Below, piece after piece: positions 45,766 through 53,768 of a stretch of 64,000 nucleotides of DNA. Source of the stretch: Ruania alkalisoli (GTDB taxonomy: Bacteria; Actinomycetota; Actinomycetes; Actinomycetales; Beutenbergiaceae). Within the stretch, counting starts at the first letter, position 1; every line of letters starts with the position of its first letter. Location of the stretch: NCBI RefSeq assembly GCF_014960965.1, contig NZ_CP063169.1, positions 2,141,581 to 2,205,580 of the forward strand, written 5' to 3'. The position numbers and the translations under genes were made by a program. Under the pieces are notes generated by a model, which was given only the letters and a program-made list of their open reading frames with translations, had not been told where the DNA came from and did not search any database.

Positions 45766-46893
45766 ATGACATGGCGAGACGGCGTGGTGCGACGGGTGGG
45801 AGCGCGATGGTCCGGGGCGCTCGAGCTCGATGTCGAGATCGATGAACCTAGCGGAACCAGCCTCGTGCGGGCACTGGCCTACCCCGATCTCGTCGGTGAA
45901 CCCTGGGTGGGCACGCGGGTGCTGCTGTCGATATCCGCACTGAGCAGGGGCTTGGGAACGGGCGGCTACGCCTTCGTTGTGGCGTGCCCCGACGACCTGC
46001 CGCCGGACCCGCCCGCCCGTGCCGGGCACCTCGTCAAGGCCCGTTACACGCCCCTGCAGACGATGGTGCTCGGCGCGGACGAGCAGGAGGCTGACAGCCA
46101 CGCCCTGCTTGCCGACGCTGACGACCTCGACGGCCTGCCGGTCGTGGTCGCTGACCTGCATTCGGCGCTGCCCGCGATCGTGGCCGGCGTACGCCACGAG
46201 ACCGAGCGTGCAGGACGTCCGGCCCCGCGTGTGGTCTACGTGATGACTGATGGTGGCGCGCTGCCCGCCTGGTTCTCCCGCACTGTAGCGACGCTGCGCG
46301 AACGGGAGTGGCTCACGGCTACCGTCACAGTCGGTCAGGCCTTCGGCGGCGACCTGGAGGCTGTCACCGTGCACTCCGGGTTGCTGGCCGCCAGGCTCGT
46401 GGCTCGCGCAGACCTGGTGGTTCTGGCACAGGGCCCAGGCAACCTCGGGACCGGCACCCGCTGGGGCTTCTCGGGCGTCAGCGCCGGGGAGGCGATCAAC
46501 GCCACCGGTGTGCTCGGTGGACGCCCGGTAGCGAGCCTGCGGGTCTCCGGAGCCGATCCGCGGCAGCGTCATCAGGGTGTCTCCCACCACAGCCTCACGG
46601 CCTATGGGCGCGTGGCGATGCACCCCTGTGATGTCGTCGTCCCCGAGTTGACCGGGTCCCTCACTGAGCTCAGTGAGACGGTTCGCGCACAGGCGCAGCC
46701 GCTTGCCGCCCGGCATCGACTGGTCACCGTGGCCACCGACGGGTTGGACGACGCCCTGGCCGCCTGCCCGGTCCGGTTGTCGACCATGGGCCGTGGCCTG
46801 GCCGAGGACCCCGGTGCGTTCCTAGCCGCCGCCGCCGCGGGCGTCCATGCCGCCCGGCTCGTGCCGCGCGACGAGGGCCGCCAGCCGGCGTGA
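45766..46893 (+). CDS. DUF3866 family protein
   Basis: The 375-residue protein matches DUF3866 in its opening MTWRDGVVRRV, a VVYVMTDGGALPAWFSRTVA segment, and LVVLAQGPGNLGTGTRWGFSG. Function is unknown; the conserved glycine-rich GPGNLGTGT loop suggests ligand binding. ATG 45766 is chosen; GTG 45763 fits a leaderless start from a TACCTT box. Its 3' end overlaps the convergent PH-domain gene by 72 bases. It is divergent from pafB. Confidence 0.85.
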   Translation: MTWRDGVVRRVGARWSGALELDVEIDEPSGTSLVRALAYPDLVGEPWVGTRVLLSISALSRGLGTGGYAFVVACPDDLPPDPPARAGHLVKARYTPLQTMVLGADEQEADSHALLADADDLDGLPVVVADLHSALPAIVAGVRHETERAGRPAPRVVYVMTDGGALPAWFSRTVATLREREWLTATVTVGQAFGGDLEAVTVHSGLLAARLVARADLVVLAQGPGNLGTGTRWGFSGVSAGEAINATGVLGGRPVASLRVSGADPRQRHQGVSHHSLTAYGRVAMHPCDVVVPELTGSLTELSETVRAQAQPLAARHRLVTVATDGLDDALAACPVRLSTMGRGLAEDPGAFLAAAAAGVHAARLVPRDEGRQPA

Positions 46894-47295
46894 GTCGGCG
46901 CGGGCGCGTTCGCCGTCGACCCGTTGGATGGCCATCACCGCCCACACGGACCCGTCGTCCAGATCGAGTTGCACCCAGTCCCGCTCACCGAATCGCACGG
47001 TGACGATCTGCTCCCAGGCGAGGTAGCGTCGTCGGAAGACGTTCCGGACCAGCAAGCCCCGCTGGTCCGGAACAGCGGCCACGCTGGCCTGCAGCCACAG
47101 GAACAGCGCCACGGCGGTGGCCAGTGCCCCGGCAGCAAGGTGGAGCCCGAGGTGTGATCCCGGGAGTCGAGCCGTCAGGATCACGAAGAGCACATAGCCG
47201 CCGACGATCCAGCCGATGATCGACAGGCTCACCCAGCGGGTGGCACGCGGGCGGAACCGAGCGTAGAGATCTGGCGCGCCCGCGTGCTCGGTCAT
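46822..47295 (-). CDS. PH-domain membrane protein
   Basis: The 157-residue protein has two membrane helices (about 22-41 and 50-70) and a bacterial PH-like domain with QRGLLVRNVFRRRYLAWEQI. It follows hisG directly, as its homologue follows ribH in mycobacteria (Rv1417). Role unknown. The C-terminal coding region overlaps the opposite-strand DUF3866 gene by 72 bases. Confidence 0.8.
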   Translation of the reverse strand: MTEHAGAPDLYARFRPRATRWVSLSIIGWIVGGYVLFVILTARLPGSHLGLHLAAGALATAVALFLWLQASVAAVPDQRGLLVRNVFRRRYLAWEQIVTVRFGERDWVQLDLDDGSVWAVMAIQRVDGERARADSRRLAALVARHEPGGMDARGGGG

Positions 47296-47300
47296 GAGCC

Positions 47301-48149
47301 CTACAGTCGGCTCGCGTGGATCCCGGTGACGATGATCGCTCGGGCCCCGAGCTCGTACAGCTCGTCCATGATCTGGTTCGTCTGCTTCCGGGGCACCATC
47401 GCGCGGACGGCCTTCCAGCGGTCGTCGTGCAGCGGCGAGACTGTCGGCGACTCCAGGCCGGGGGTGACGGCCACGCAGGCCTCCACTCGATCCACCGGGC
47501 AGTCGTAGTCCATGAGGACATACTGACGTGCGACGAGCACGCCATGGAGACGGCGGTCGAGGGTGGCGAGCCCTGCCTTGGGCTCCTCCCCCGCGTTCGG
47601 GCGGATCAGCACCGCCTCCGAGTGCAGGATCGGCTCGCCGAAGACGTGCAGGCCCGCCGCACGTAGTGTGCCACCGGTCTCGACGACGTCCGCGACCACG
47701 TCAGCAACCCCGAGCCGGATGGTTGACTCGATCGCGCCGTCCAGACGGACCACATGCGCATCGATACCCCGTTCAGACAGGTACGTGCCGACCAGGTGGG
47801 CGTAGCTGGTGGCGACTCGCTTGCCGTGGATGTCCGCCAGTGAGGTGACCTGGTCGGGTGGCCCGGCGAAGTGGAACGTCGAGCCTGCGAAGCCGAGCGC
47901 GCGATGCTCGATGGCGTCCACACCGGAGTCCAGTAGCAGGTCGCGGCCGGTGATTCCGGCGTCGACGACGCCTTCACCGACGTAGACGGCGATGTCACGC
48001 GGTCGCAGGAAGAAGAACTCGACGTCGTTCGCGGTGTCGGGCAGTACCAGTTCGCGGCCGTCGCGGCGCTGCCGGTAGCCGGCTTCCCGCAGCATCTGGC
48101 TGGCGGGCTCGGAGAGTGAGCCCTTGTTGGGCACGGCAATTCTGAGCAC
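47301..48149 (-). CDS. hisG: ATP phosphoribosyltransferase (long form)
   Basis: The 282-residue protein starts [12 protein letters not shown] and has the PRPP-binding segment [17 protein letters not shown], then the C-terminal ACT-like regulatory domain ([18 protein letters not shown]) that binds histidine. It catalyses the first step of histidine synthesis. GTG 48149 is chosen as the standard family start with GAAGGA upstream; GTG 48167 is less likely. It follows hisE. Confidence 0.94.
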
Positions 48150-48202
48150 GGGGGTCCTTCGGTTCACAGATGGGTGGGTGTCATATCACGTGGGCCGGGT
48201 GC

Positions 48203-48466
48203 TCACAGATGCTTGTAGACGTCCTCGAGTGTGAGACCGCGGGCGAGCATCATCACCTGCAGGTGGTAAAGCAGCTGCGAGATCTCTTCGGCGGCCTCGT
48301 CCTCGCTCTGGTACTCGGCCGCCATCCACACCTCGGCGGCCTCCTCGACGATCTTCTTGCCGATGGCATGGACGCCGGAGTCCAGCTCGGCGACGGTCCC
48401 GGAACCGTCCGGGCGGGTCTGGGCCTTGTGCTGGAGCTCGGCGAAGAGGTCGTCGAAGGTTTTCAC
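48203..48466 (-). CDS. hisE: Phosphoribosyl-ATP pyrophosphatase
   Basis: The 87-residue protein has the MazG-like HisE motif [16 protein letters not shown] with EE(x)2E metal ligands and the downstream [13 protein letters not shown]. It hydrolyses phosphoribosyl-ATP, step two of the histidine pathway. The GTG start has a TAGGCT box 7 bases upstream that overlaps the stop codon of the preceding ABC binding protein gene. Confidence 0.93.
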
Positions 48467-48473
48467 GCCGCAG

Positions 48474-48479
48474 AGCCTA
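48474..48479 (-). promoter_or_regulatory. Leaderless-type -10 box for hisE
   Basis: TAGGCT lies 7 bases before the GTG. Its TAG is the stop codon of the upstream RibY-like gene. This would let hisE-hisG be transcribed independently of the riboswitch. Confidence 0.45.
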
Positions 48480-49502
48480 CTGGTCTTCAGCGAAGGCGTC
48501 GGTATACGCCTCCTGGGGTGGGACGGGCGAGGAGGTCAACTCAACCGAGTCGAGGAACGTCGACATCTCCTGCCACGGGCCGCGGTGCACGCCCCACCCG
48601 GGACCGGTGGTGCCGTACAACGGCACTGTCGACTCCATCGTGGCGGTCATGATCGCCTCCTGCTCGGCATCGACGGTGCCCGGGATCGCCTCGATCGCGG
48701 CGTCCACCCCGGAACGGGGGTCTGCGGCGATGTCGGCGAGGGCACGCCCGACTGCGCCGATCACCGCCCGCAACGCCTCGGGTTGGGTCTGGGTGAGCTC
48801 GTCGGTGGTGCCGAGTCCGATGCCCACGAGCGGCACCTCACCCAGGGGTACGGCCCGCACGTCGAGCCCGGTGGCGGCGAACTGAGGTACGTCGTTGTTC
48901 TGATAGCCCATGACGGCGTCCACGTGTCCCTCGGAGAGTGCGCTCTGCTGCGTGAAGCCGATGTGTTCGATCTGCACGTCCTCGTCGGTGAGCCCGGCCT
49001 GGTCGAGCATGGCGAGCAGCCCGAACCACGTCTCCCCGAACGGACCGGGCACCCCGACGGTGCGGCCGACCAGGTCGGCCGGCGTGGCGATGTCGGAGTC
49101 GGCCGGAACGATGAGCGCCACCGGATAGGACTCATACAGGGTGGCGATGCTGCGGACCGGAACGCCCGCGTCCCGCGCCACCATGATCTCGTCGCCACCG
49201 GCCACGACCACCTGCTCGGTGCCGGCGGCCAGGGCTCCGAACAGGTCCTCGGACTCGCCGTGGTGACGCAGGGTGACATCGACGCCGGCCTCATCGAAGT
49301 AGCCCTGCTGTTCGGCGAGGTAGAACGGCGCGAACTGGACGTTCGGAACGTACGTGAGGCCGATCGTCAGTGAGTGCTGCGGATCGGTGCCCGAACTCGG
49401 CGAGGAAGAGTCGCCGTCATCGGTGGTGGGCGCGCACCCCGCGGCTGCGGCAAGAGTGAGTGTGAGGGCAGCCAGCAGGCTGCGGCGGCGAACGGTAGTC
49501 AC
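48477..49502 (-). CDS. ribY: NMT1/THI5-type ABC binding lipoprotein, probable riboflavin importer subunit
   Basis: The 341-residue protein has a signal peptide with lipobox AAGC (Cys near 22), a Ser/Asp-rich linker, and the NMT1/THI5-like fold ([36 protein letters not shown]). Members bind pyrimidines, thiamine precursors or riboflavin. The FMN riboswitch upstream of its operon points to riboflavin or a flavin, as for RibY. GTG 49502 overlaps the permease stop by 4 bases. No ATPase gene is in the operon. Confidence 0.82.
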
Positions 49503-50278
49503 CAACGGACCTTTCTTTCCCAGGCTCTGACGAGCACGTAGAATCCGACCGCTCCGGCGGCCAGGACGATGAGAGTGGCGAACATGCCGGTCGTGTCGGA
49601 GCGGTCGCGGTAGACCGACAGCAGCAGTCCCAGGCCCTGCCCGCCCATGACGAACTCGCCGACCACGGCGCCCGTGATGGACAGGACGAAACCGTTGCGG
49701 ACACCCGCGAGGACGGCGGGAAGGGCCAGGGGCGCTTCGATGTGGAGCAGCAGACGCCAGCGCCCGGCGCCGTCGAGCCGCGCGGCACCGAGCACCTCCT
49801 CGTCGAGCGTGGTCAGGCCGAGGGTGGTGTTCACCACGATCGGGAAGAAGACCAGCAGCGCGCACAGCATCGCGATCGGCAGCAGGCCATAGCCGAACCA
49901 GAGGACGATCAGCGGGGCGAGGGCGACGGCGGGGATGGCCTGGGTGGCGGCCAGGTAGGGCCCCAGCGCGGCCGACGCGAGGCGGGACCGGGCCAGCAGG
50001 TAGCCGAGTGGGAGGGCGACCGCCAGGCCGATGAGACCGCCGAGGAGGCTCTCGCTGGCCGTGGTGGCGGCGTAGCGCAGGATGTCGCCCTCGGAGATCT
50101 CGGTCGCGAGCCGCGTGGCCAGTGCACTAGGGGCAGGAAGGAGGCGCGAGGGCGTCAGGCCGGCGACGATCTCCCACAGGAGCAGCCCGGCCGCTCCGGC
50201 CGCGAGCGGTGCCAGAACGGACGAGCCGACAAGATCGGCGGCGTCAGCCGGTCCTGGCTGCGTCGACCTGCGCGACAT
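49499..50278 (-). CDS. ribX: ABC transporter permease, probable riboflavin importer (RibX-like)
   Basis: The 259-residue protein has about six membrane helices and the EAA-type loop EEVLGAARLDGAGRWRLLLH, as in NitT/TauT-type permeases. Immediately upstream is an FMN riboswitch, so it is a riboflavin-importer candidate. ATG 50278 follows GAGAGGACGAAAGAGC. An upstream frame to 50386 would run into the riboswitch and is rejected. Partner ATPase missing, perhaps shared. Confidence 0.82.
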   Translation of the reverse strand: MSRRSTQPGPADAADLVGSSVLAPLAAGAAGLLLWEIVAGLTPSRLLPAPSALATRLATEISEGDILRYAATTASESLLGGLIGLAVALPLGYLLARSRLASAALGPYLAATQAIPAVALAPLIVLWFGYGLLPIAMLCALLVFFPIVVNTTLGLTTLDEEVLGAARLDGAGRWRLLLHIEAPLALPAVLAGVRNGFVLSITGAVVGEFVMGGQGLGLLLSVYRDRSDTTGMFATLIVLAAGAVGFYVLVRAWERKVRW

Positions 50279-50341
50279 GCTCTTTCGTCCTCTCCCCAAG
50301 CGATACCCGGGGTGGACGACGGCGCGGCGCACGTCGACCGA

Positions 50342-50359
50342 CGACGTCACTTGACGTCG
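50342..50359 (-). promoter_or_regulatory. Expression-platform hairpin after the FMN riboswitch
   Basis: CGACGTC and GACGTCG pair across the AAGT loop immediately after the aptamer closing stem. A downstream ACGTGC (50329-50334) could compete for the closing strand GCACG of the aptamer. No U-run follows, so it is not a clear intrinsic terminator. Confidence 0.45.
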
Positions 50360-50480
50360 CGTGCTTCCTCCCATCCGGACTTTCACCGTCGGTCCTGGAG
50401 TTCCACCAGGTCAACCGATCTTGCGATCGGGTCGCGGACTGTCACCGCCGGCTCGGACTTTCACCGACCCCGGAGCACGT
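50360..50480 (-). ncRNA. FMN riboswitch (RFN element)
   Basis: Read on the minus strand this has the conserved RFN core: GAGCCGGCGGTGACAGTCCG, a variable hairpin CCGATC-GCAA-GATCGG, then GACCGACGGTGAAAGTCCGG and GATGGGAGGAAG. The ends pair as ACGTGCT with AGCACG(C) to close helix P1. This is the classic FMN-sensing aptamer. It precedes the ribX-ribY pair, so flavin binding should turn importer expression down. It starts 39 bases after the rpe stop. Confidence 0.93.
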
Positions 50481-50518
50481 TGATCGCGGCCATTCTCTCA
50501 CACCTGAGACGGTGGGCC

Positions 50519-51190
50519 TCAGGGCCGGAACGCGTCCGTGGCCTTGCCCCGCAGGACGGCGATCTCCTCGGCCGGGTCGGCGGCAGAGTAGACCGCTGAG
50601 CCTGCGACGAAGACGTTCGCGCCTGCGGCTGCGGCGTCGGCGATGGTCTCGCGGGAGACGCCACCGTCGACCTGGATCCACACGTCACCGCCCGAGCGGG
50701 TGATGGCATCGCGGGTACGACGGATCTTCGGCAACGTCCCGGTGATGAAGGACTGGCCACCGAAGCCGGGTTCAACGGTCATCACCAGGACCATGTCGAA
50801 CTCCGGTAGCAGGTCCAGATAGTTCTCGATCCCGGTCGCCGGGCGGAGCGCGAGACTTGCCCTGGCACCTTTCGCGCGGAGTTCCCGCGCGAGCCTCACT
50901 GGCGCCCGGGCCGCTTCGGCGTGGAAGGTGACGGACGCAGCCCCGGCCTCGGCGTAGGCGGGGGCCCAGGTGTCCGGGTCGTCGATCATCAGGTGCACAT
51001 CGGCGGGAACGGCCGTGGTGGCGAGGATACGTTCGACCACCGGGAGGCCGAAGGTCATGTTGGGCACGAAATGGTTGTCCATGACGTCCAAGTGCACGTA
51101 GTCGGCACTGGCGATGCGCCCGATCTCCCCGGTGAGGTTCGCCAGGTCCGCGTTCAGCACGCTCGGTGAGATGAGTATCGGTGCCGTCAT
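50519..51190 (-). CDS. rpe: Ribulose-phosphate 3-epimerase
   Basis: The 223-residue protein has [13 protein letters not shown], catalytic metal-site motifs [14 protein letters not shown] and [10 protein letters not shown], and [11 protein letters not shown]. It interconverts ribulose 5-phosphate and xylulose 5-phosphate in the pentose phosphate pathway. The start lies 21 bases after the rsmB stop, with a TACCCT box 7 bases upstream. The fmt-rsmB-rpe order is standard in actinobacteria. Confidence 0.95.
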
Positions 51191-51197
51191 GGTGGTC

Positions 51198-51203
51198 AGG
51201 GTA
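51198..51203 (-). promoter_or_regulatory. Leaderless-type -10 box for rpe
   Basis: TACCCT lies 7 bases before the ATG at 51190, just after the rsmB stop codon. Confidence 0.4.
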
Positions 51204-51210
51204 TCGGTGG

Positions 51211-52797
51211 TCACCGGCGAATGAGGGCGAGGAACATCGCGTCGGTCCCGTGCCGGTGGGGCCACAGTTGCACATAGGGGCCCTGCTGGCTGGGCAGCGG
51301 GGCGCCGATCACACGCTCGGCGATCTCGACGGCGTCCAGTACCTCCGCATGCTCGGCTCGCTTCAGCACGTCGGTCACCACGGCGTGAGTCTCGGCCAGG
51401 TGCGGAGAGCAGGTCACATAGGCCACCACTCCCCCGGGACGGGTGGCGTTCAGAGCGGAGGTCAGCAACTGGCGCTGCAGCGGGCCGAGGGTGGCCAGGT
51501 CGGACAGCGACCGACGCCAGCGGGACTCGGGGCGGCGGCGGAGCGCGCCCAGGCCCGTGCACGGGGCGTCCACCAGGACTCGATCGAAGGCACCGGGCTG
51601 TTCGTGTCCGACTTCTCGGCCGTCTCCGATCCGGACGCTCAAGCCGGGCAGCACCGTCCGGACGGCTGCGGTGGACTGATCCACAAGTCTGGCCCGGTGG
51701 GTAGAGATCTCGTTGGCCACCAGAACTCCGTCCGGAGACCGTTCGGCGAGGAGGGCGCCGAACAGGGCGGCCTTGCCGCCGGGGCCGGCGCACAGGTCGA
51801 GCCATGTGGCATCGGGGCCATCGACGGGCGCGGCGGCGGCAATCAGCGTGACGAGCTGGCTTCCTTCATCTTGGACCCCGGCGCGGGCGGAGCGGACCGC
51901 CTCCAGCGCCCCTGGATCGCCATGAGAGAGCGTACGAGCGGTCGAGGCCCATCGGGTGGGCTGGCCATTGGGTGCATCCTCGTCCGTCGCGAGCCCTGGG
52001 CGGAGAACGAGTGTGACCGCGGGCGGGGTGTTGTCCGCCTCCAGCAGCGCGGGCAGGTCGTCCGCACCGTCGGCGGTGGTGGACAGGCTCTGCCGCATCG
52101 AGCGAACGATCCACGCCGGGTGCGAACTGGACACAGCCAGCCGGTCGGTTTCCTCGGGCACTTCGGCGGTGATGATGTCCAACCATTCCGGAAGCTCACG
52201 CTCGGCGATGCGTCGCAGGATCGCGTTGACGAACTGAGCCGACCCGGCTCCGACGGCACTGCGGGCCAGCCCCACTGTCGCGGAGACGGCTGCGTGATCG
52301 GGTACCCGCATGGCGAGTAGCTGGTGGGCACCGAGCCGCAGGACGTCGAGCACCGGTGGGTCGAGCTGCTCGAGGCGGCGGTCTGCGACAGTGGCGATGA
52401 TCGCGTCATAGCGGCCCTGGTAGCGCAGCGTGCCGTATGCGAGCTCGGTCGCGAACGCGGCATCACGGCCGATGATGCGGCGTTCGCGCAGCATCGGCGG
52501 CAGGGTCAGGTTCGCGTAGGAGTCGGAGTCGGCGACTGTGCGGAGGGTGTCGTAGGCGGCGCGGCGCGCCGGATCGGCGTCCTTGGCTCGCTCGCGTGGT
52601 GCCCGGTTCGTGCGGGAACGGTCGTCGGTCCTGTCGCGACGATTGGCGCCACGCTGGGCGCCTTGTCGGCCGTGCTCCCGCCCACCCGGTTGATCACCTC
52701 CACGACTCGATCGCGGTCCGCGCGCTGGCCGGCCGTCCCGATCGTGCCGGCCGCGGCGTTCCCGGTCATTGCCGTTGTTGCGGTGATCTTCGTTCAT
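51211..52797 (-). CDS. rsmB: 16S rRNA m5C967 methyltransferase RsmB
   Basis: The 528-residue protein has a NusB-like N-terminal domain ([12 protein letters not shown]... [13 protein letters not shown]), a SAM site [15 protein letters not shown], and the two catalytic cysteines in DAPCTGLG and [14 protein letters not shown]. The first about 70 residues are an Arg/Gly/Asp-rich, probably disordered extension. It methylates C967 of 16S rRNA. The start overlaps the fmt stop by 4 bases. Confidence 0.92.
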
Positions 52798-53768
52798 ATC
52801 TGCGTGTCCTGCCTGGAGTGGTGGCCGGCTGCCACATCAGCGATATCGAATCTGTCGGCTTCACCCAGCCGCGCGCCCCGTGCCCAGTCGGCCGCTGCCA
52901 TCCAGGACTTCCCTGGTGGCGCGATCCGGTCGAGACGCACCGGCACGGTCCCGGTGCCGACAAAGACGCCGTCCGCTGTGGCGGCGAGCTGGCCCGGCAC
53001 GAGCGCGGTGGCGTTCTGGACGGGGCGTACCGGTCCGAGCTTGACGCGGTGGCCCTCCCGGGTGGTCCACGCCCCCGGGGCCGGGGTGCAGCCACGGATC
53101 TGCCTGTCGATGGCGGCCGCGGGCCGTCGCCAGTCGACGTGCCCGTGTTCGGCTGTCAGGCGGGGGGCGTGACTGACACCGTCGGGAGGCTGTGGTTGCG
53201 GCTGCGCGCTGCCGTCAGCCAGTGCGTCCAGGGATGAGACGAGAAGGGCGGGCCCTGACTCCGCCAGCCGGTCCAGCAGGTCGCCGCTCGTATCCCACGG
53301 GCGCACCGTCTCAGTCATCGTGCCGATCACAGGGCCGGTGTCGAGACCTGCTTCGATGCGGAACGTGCTCGCCCCGGTCACGTCGTCGCCGGCCATGATC
53401 GCGTGCTGCACAGGTGCCGCACCTCGCCATGCGGGCAGGAGTGAGAAGTGCAGGTTGATCCAGCCGTGCGTCGGCAGCGAGAGGGCGGGTTCACGCAGCA
53501 GCGCACCGTAGGCGACGACGGCGCACGCGTCCGGGGCGAGTGCGCGCAGGCGCTCGTAGGTGCCGGGTTCGTGCGGCTTGTCGGAGGTGATCACCGGGAT
53601 TCCTGCCGCGTCCGCCGCCTCGTGAACCGGACTCGGAGTCAGGACGCGTTTGCGCCCGACAGGGGCCGGAGGTCGCGTGAGAACGGCGACAACCTCGTGG
53701 TCTGAGGCGAGGATCGCGTGGAGGGAGGGCACAGCAACGGCGGGCGTGCCCGCAAACACAACACGCAT
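52794..53768 (-). CDS. fmt: Methionyl-tRNA formyltransferase
   Basis: The 324-residue protein has the formyltransferase motif [21 protein letters not shown] with the Asn-His pair, a conserved DTGPVIG with catalytic Asp, and a C-terminal beta domain for tRNA binding. It formylates initiator Met-tRNA. The ATG has a TAGACT box 7 bases upstream. It heads the fmt-rsmB operon. Confidence 0.94.

Follow-up and report, generated by a model that had tools for sequence, protein, structure and literature searches.

Between rpe and hisE, the genome of Ruania alkalisoli carries an FMN riboswitch followed by a two-gene module, ribXY, which is very probably a riboflavin importer under FMN feedback, as predicted from its sequence. 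In relatives the same slot is filled with riboflavin synthesis genes (ribDEBAH), with ribXY or with a RibM-type permease. The original prediction regarded the locus as a switch from riboflavin synthesis to uptake; this does not hold for Ruania, which keeps a complete synthesis operon elsewhere, but replacement of synthesis by uptake looks real in nine family-mates with ribXY, judging by their gene content. The features of the window, i.e., of the whole 64,000-nt stretch of DNA analysed, are as follows.

46822..47295, minus strand: bacterial PH-domain protein (bPH_6; PF10756, 52.5 bits)
47301..48167, minus strand: hisG (TIGR00070, 177.1 bits)
48203..48466, minus strand: hisE, bordering the slot downstream, 10 nt past ribY (NF001610, 162.6 bits)
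48477..49502, minus strand: ribY, NMT1/THI5-type substrate-binding lipoprotein, 341 aa (PF09084, 145.2 bits)
49499..50278, minus strand: ribX, ABC permease (BPD_transp_1), 259 aa (PF00528, 112.8 bits)
50289..50312, minus strand: predicted hairpin CCCCGGG...CUUGGGG with the ribX ribosome-binding site GGGGAGAGG in its 3' arm
50358..50481, minus strand: FMN riboswitch aptamer, or RFN element (cmscan, RF00050)
50519..51205, minus strand: rpe, upstream border of the slot (TIGR01163, 247.4 bits)
51211..52797, minus strand: rsmB (translation and conserved place in relatives)
52794..53768, minus strand: fmt (translation and conserved place in relatives)

The claim of a textbook FMN aptamer is borne out by the Rfam FMN covariance model, which cmscan places on the minus strand at 50481-50358 at 92.7 bits, where the gathering score is 66.2 (RF00050, E 5.2e-20, model positions 1-138). 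The same aptamer was recovered in a whole-genome FMN search of the Ruania genome (G000), and FMN is the sole Rfam family reaching its gathering score across the 64 kb window. About 80 nt separate the end of the aptamer from the start of ribX, and the RNA of this stretch (50374-50262) folds with -57.8 kcal/mol (z -3.47). Both arms of the hairpin listed above are found in 11 of 12 aligned leaders, the stretch in the twelfth (G009) being too short. Since the hairpin holds the ribosome-binding site and its arms are kept in these leaders, translational control of ribX through occlusion of its ribosome-binding site is likely. When FMN is scarce in the cytosol, the site would stay open and RibX and RibY would be made, while plentiful FMN would fold the aptamer and let the hairpin hide the site. 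As to the far end of the module, hisE starts directly behind ribY (window 48466-48477), and hisE-hisG may lie on the FMN-controlled transcript.

Both importer genes are intact and overlap by 4 nt, and their PF00528 and PF09084 scores lie far over the cut-off, in agreement with the reading of a RibXY-like permease and lipoprotein directly behind the aptamer. The N-terminus of RibY is of the lipoprotein type, with cysteine 23 invariant in 16 of 16 aligned sequences, and the protein is 95% identical to RibY of Ruania rhizosphaerae. RibX would thus act as the permease and RibY as its flavin-binding lipoprotein. In an alignment of 16 sequences D169 and A171 of the RibX coupling loop, a region that we take to be the EAA loop, are invariant and G170 is nearly so; given this conservation, RibX should need an ABC ATPase. 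A profile scan of the six neighbours of ribXY in the window found none, just as had been noted from the sequence, and the ATPase would have to be supplied in trans from another locus.

The substrate deserves separate consideration. The nearest solved relative of RibY is 3ix1, a pyrimidine-binding protein, and because the nearest solved relatives bind thiamine pyrimidines rather than flavins, the assignment of the substrate rests on the riboswitch, from which we infer riboflavin. ThiXYZ, an ABC importer of thiamine precursors, is under TPP control, whereas no TPP riboswitch was met in the window, where only FMN reaches the gathering score. Homology of ThiXYZ to RibXY is described in PMC3766115, which also gives ThiXYZ an ATPase component; none of the six neighbours scanned in the window is an ATPase. 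Transport of another substrate, e.g., a thiamine pyrimidine precursor, would fit the homology of RibY to THI5-type and pyrimidine-binding proteins, as well as the RibXY homologues with other riboswitches reported in PMC4418817. Such a substrate is nevertheless very unlikely: ribXY is preceded by an FMN aptamer, the sole Rfam hit at gathering score in the window; the same pairing of FMN switch and ribXY turns up in different families; and 23 of the 30 ribXY genomes examined have no ribH.

At the level of the locus, the arrangement in Ruania is as had been read from the sequence: profiles, translations and synteny confirm fmt-rsmB-rpe on one side of the slot and hisE-hisG-PH on the other, and the rib genes are gone from the interval between rpe and hisE. 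They are present elsewhere in the genome. The window belongs to an assembly of one 4.45 Mb contig with 100% completeness, and a second FMN riboswitch in this assembly (G000:C1:649628-649758, 94.6 bits) heads ribD, ribE, ribBA and ribH, the operon and its switch spanning G000:C1:649628-653546 (L003). The ribD, ribE and ribH products exceed curated equivalog cut-offs, RibBA clears the cut-offs set for its ribB domain and for the RibA subfamily, and ribH, ribE and ribB were recovered again by genome-wide searches. The importer does occupy a slot where some order-mates keep synthesis genes, which is what would speak for an organism that itself swapped synthesis for uptake; since Ruania also has ribD, ribE, ribBA and ribH under another FMN switch, this reading is almost certainly wrong, and replacement at the genome level is ruled out for Ruania. 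Ruania instead has both modules, with ribXY in the slot and the synthesis operon at another locus. Position makes it plausible that the slot retained the same riboswitch through a change of cargo. A DNA tree of the switches has too few sites to demonstrate this: 125 rows are compared over 131 columns, and 65 of 113 inner branches stay open. In this tree the switch of the Ruania rib operon stands beside switches of Streptomyces and Saccharothrix, without a starred branch. In some other Ruania genomes the sole ribE match lies away from the rib operon (G003:C2:1839803, G005:C11:42418).

Comparison with relatives bears out the idea of a slot with changing content and extends it to three kinds of cargo. 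Because loci entered the comparison through an FMN switch or through a match to RibY, they document the existence of the arrangements and not their frequencies. Within the family of the window, 23 of the 24 genomes examined, the window counted, have ribXY in the interval from rpe to hisE; the remaining one, G008, is a fragmented assembly from which no slot locus was fetched. The distance from rpe to the FMN switch in the family slots is 42 nt at the least and about 4.2 kb at the most, which implies that other genes have been inserted in some genera. In line with the original prediction, some order-mates carry synthesis genes at this position, namely ribDEBAH behind an FMN switch (G028, G037, G039, G046, G148, G221 and G341). 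In G029 (L092), G034 (L090), G038 (L100) and G054 (L109) the switch is followed by a PF04973 permease of the RibM/PnuC type. Outside the family, ribXY is found in the full rpe-hisE slot of G025 and, with the rpe side of the slot only, in G057; among 80 named ribY loci, Actinomycetaceae such as Trueperella and Arcanobacterium show the slot form as well. At a further locus, L108 (G042), an FMN switch precedes an ECF-type riboflavin S component and then an ORF with ABC ATPase motifs.

Loss of synthesis is seen on this background in part of the family. Nine of its genomes (G009, G011, G012, G013, G015, G016, G018, G019 and G022; completeness 95-100%) have one FMN switch, located at ribXY, in a genome search whose stricter filters lose weak matches. 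Neither ribH nor ribB was found in any of the nine (0/9 each, with 14/14 controls positive for each gene), ribD gave no match at E 1e-60, the only threshold used, and ribE remains in two of them as a lone copy (G013, L312; G018, L313). Another family member, G007, has ribE and lacks ribH in a fragmented assembly. Outside the family, ribB and ribH are absent from G025 and G057, both with ribXY, and from G054, with RibM. Gene content thus supports a putative importer without synthesis in the nine family genomes as well as in G025, G057 and G054, and several descendants within the family would have lost synthesis to live on uptake.

The synthesis operons that do occur in the family are not one clade. 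For RibD, a single family clade is rejected in the main alignment (AU p 1.1e-4; 18 of 52 rows), in a smaller set (p 1.7e-9; 14 of 48 rows) and after removal of Georgenia and G008 (p 1.4e-4; 13 of 52 rows). RibE, RibBA and RibH taken together reject the family as one clade (p 5e-17; 17 of 40 rows), and also Ruania together with Georgenia and G008 (p 0.0011), while the result is borderline (p 0.046) once Georgenia and G008 are taken out of the family. RibBA alone rejects the family clade (p 7.2e-5; 14 of 33 rows), and a clade of Ruania and Occultella is not rejected by it (p 0.088). When Ruania RibD was searched against 396 genomes of the order, its best 14 hits beyond the genus (53-63%) were all in other families, and none of 16 family-mates outside the genus was matched at E 1e-60. 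The best 20 matches of Ruania RibBA outside its own genome (57-62%) all come from other orders in a class-wide sample of 394 genomes that holds few members of the family; the best match within the order, at 58%, is hardly under the cross-order ones, and G010, the one family-mate listed, gave no RibBA match at E 1e-112 in this search. Taken together, the trees and matches suggest that the Ruania synthesis operon was probably gained horizontally.

The importer genes tell a different part of the story. A clade of the family with Georgenia is not rejected for ribX and ribY (p 0.26; 32 of 90 rows), the best tree separating the two, and in the slot-gene tree the 22 family rows used, the window's own row being absent, group with G025. 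On this pattern, the family ancestor probably carried ribXY in the slot. Lone ribD genes, with no other rib gene in the 13 kb of sequence covered, were met at several loci of other families (L227, L230-L232, L234-L238 and L246) and cluster with Ruania RibD, as if the Ruania type of this gene were moving by itself.

For the family as a whole, we lean slightly towards a history of synthesis loss followed by horizontal regain, in which the direction of gain or loss is what we infer, since tree changes cannot separate the two. Its main rival is an ancestor already equipped with a synthesis operon in addition to ribXY in the slot; repeated losses would have followed, and the operon genes of Ruania would have been replaced by foreign ones without any auxotrophic ancestor. 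Georgenia lends this scenario some weight. Four loci (L140, L131, L137 and L127) show ribXY-hisE-hisG-PH and then ribDEBAH with its own FMN switch, although in L137 ribH lies beyond the end of the sequence; both switches are visible in L140, L131 and L137, 5 to 10 kb apart. Only L140 has rpe upstream of ribXY: it is absent from the roughly 9 kb upstream in L131 and L137, and L127 begins at ribX. Georgenia subflava combines ribXY in the slot with a separately switched ribDEBAH shortly past hisG-PH, and both modules may therefore go back to the family ancestor. The Occultella and Pseudactinotalea operons, moreover, group weakly in the tree of RibE, RibBA and RibH (support 59). However, the operons of Georgenia, of Occultella and Pseudactinotalea, and of Ruania differ in origin, both by RibD and by RibE, RibBA and RibH, so an ancestor with both modules calls for several replacements on top of several losses. 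We consider this ancestor a serious possibility, if the less likely one, and keep loss and horizontal regain as the working reading.

The power source of RibXY was approached through candidate ATPases. No ATPase was found beside ribXY in the available sequence of the 80 named loci with eight ATPase queries from the Ruania genome, four of which are of the nitrate/taurine kind, and contig ends clip several of the loci. The Ruania genome has three clear members of the nitrate/taurine class (206-239 bits) and a fourth type, L038, at 171 bits; G016 holds one at 163. No obvious orphan ATPase of this class stands out as the RibXY partner in Ruania, because L033, L034, L035 and L038 each adjoin a permease-like ORF, named as such from its translation. 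The nitrate/taurine ATPase model was then compared with 30 ribXY-bearing genomes (12 and 18), the set in which 23 are without ribH. Twelve of these 23 show no match above 180 bits, a line set after the scores were seen: G016, G025, G396-G402, G405, G406 and G407. The named genomes in the set came without completeness values. The other 11 ribH-less genomes (G057, G009, G011, G012, G013, G015, G018, G019, G022, G404 and G411) score above it, G057 just over the line with 182.8 bits. Of the candidates from a first look, 111 of 136 were scored in G016 and 90 of 103 in G401.

The best matches were scanned in 10 of the 12 low-scoring genomes, and nine are closest to ATPases of the UgpC, PotA, ProV or PhnT type, L286, L287, L289 and L290 among them reaching no curated cut-off. 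In G016 the best ATPase match fell into no family at E 1e-55. A UgpC/MsiK-type ATPase, in Ruania encoded at C1:932675-933796, is present in 18 of 18 genomes tested, with 60-91% identity in the 17 beyond the query's own (partial in G401). We take it to be MsiK by name, the NCBIfam name being UgpC. The dozen ribH-less ribXY genomes without a clear nitrate/taurine-class ATPase lead to the suggestion that RibXY may borrow this protein, although such ATPases are common in these bacteria and their presence does not prove a partnership. It is tempting to combine these threads into one scheme, in which RibXY is a "half" ABC importer borrowing a shared UgpC/MsiK-type sugar ATPase, and the slot repeatedly exchanged its flavin-supply module, be it synthesis, RibXY or RibM, downstream of a single FMN switch, synthesis being first lost and then reacquired from outside; as a whole, this scheme is tentative and rather doubtful.

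The importer itself is no different from published RibXY: they share a COG0600-type permease and a COG0715-type binding protein, an FMN riboswitch and the lack of an operon ATPase (PMC3766115, PMC4418817). The system was proposed from FMN riboswitches in Chloroflexi, likewise without an ATPase, in PMC3766115. According to PMC4418817, which starts from a RibY threshold of 38% identity over 80% to the C. aurantiacus protein, RibXY of C. aurantiacus rescued an E. coli riboflavin auxotroph, a linked ATPase accompanies RibXY in a few Chloroflexi, and the Actinobacteria listed with RibXY include some that have the synthesis pathway and some that lack it. The occurrence of FMN-controlled ribXY in these bacteria, whether beside a synthesis pathway or not, had thus been published before. 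Actinobacterial ribM, of the PnuC family, is another FMN-controlled riboflavin uptake gene (PMC4418817). It is a single-gene permease unrelated to RibXY. In Streptomyces davaonensis, among the roseoflavin producers, ribXY belongs to the rosB cluster (PMC11039241), whereas in Ruania it stands alone in the rpe-hisE slot. Neither a comparison of this slot nor an ATPase pairing for RibXY was found in the titles and abstract openings of the literature searched. What this analysis contributes is a comparison of the slot among relatives, the finding that the family's synthesis operons have mixed origins, and a more pointed question about the ATPase.

These observations present one riboswitch locus whose cargo alternates between vitamin synthesis and vitamin import. 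The power source of RibXY becomes a concrete test, as several dependent genomes seem to be without the expected ATPase class. By their gene content, nine of the 24 family genomes examined seem to be auxotrophs, and the comparison suggests that a lineage which has lost vitamin synthesis can reacquire it from outside.
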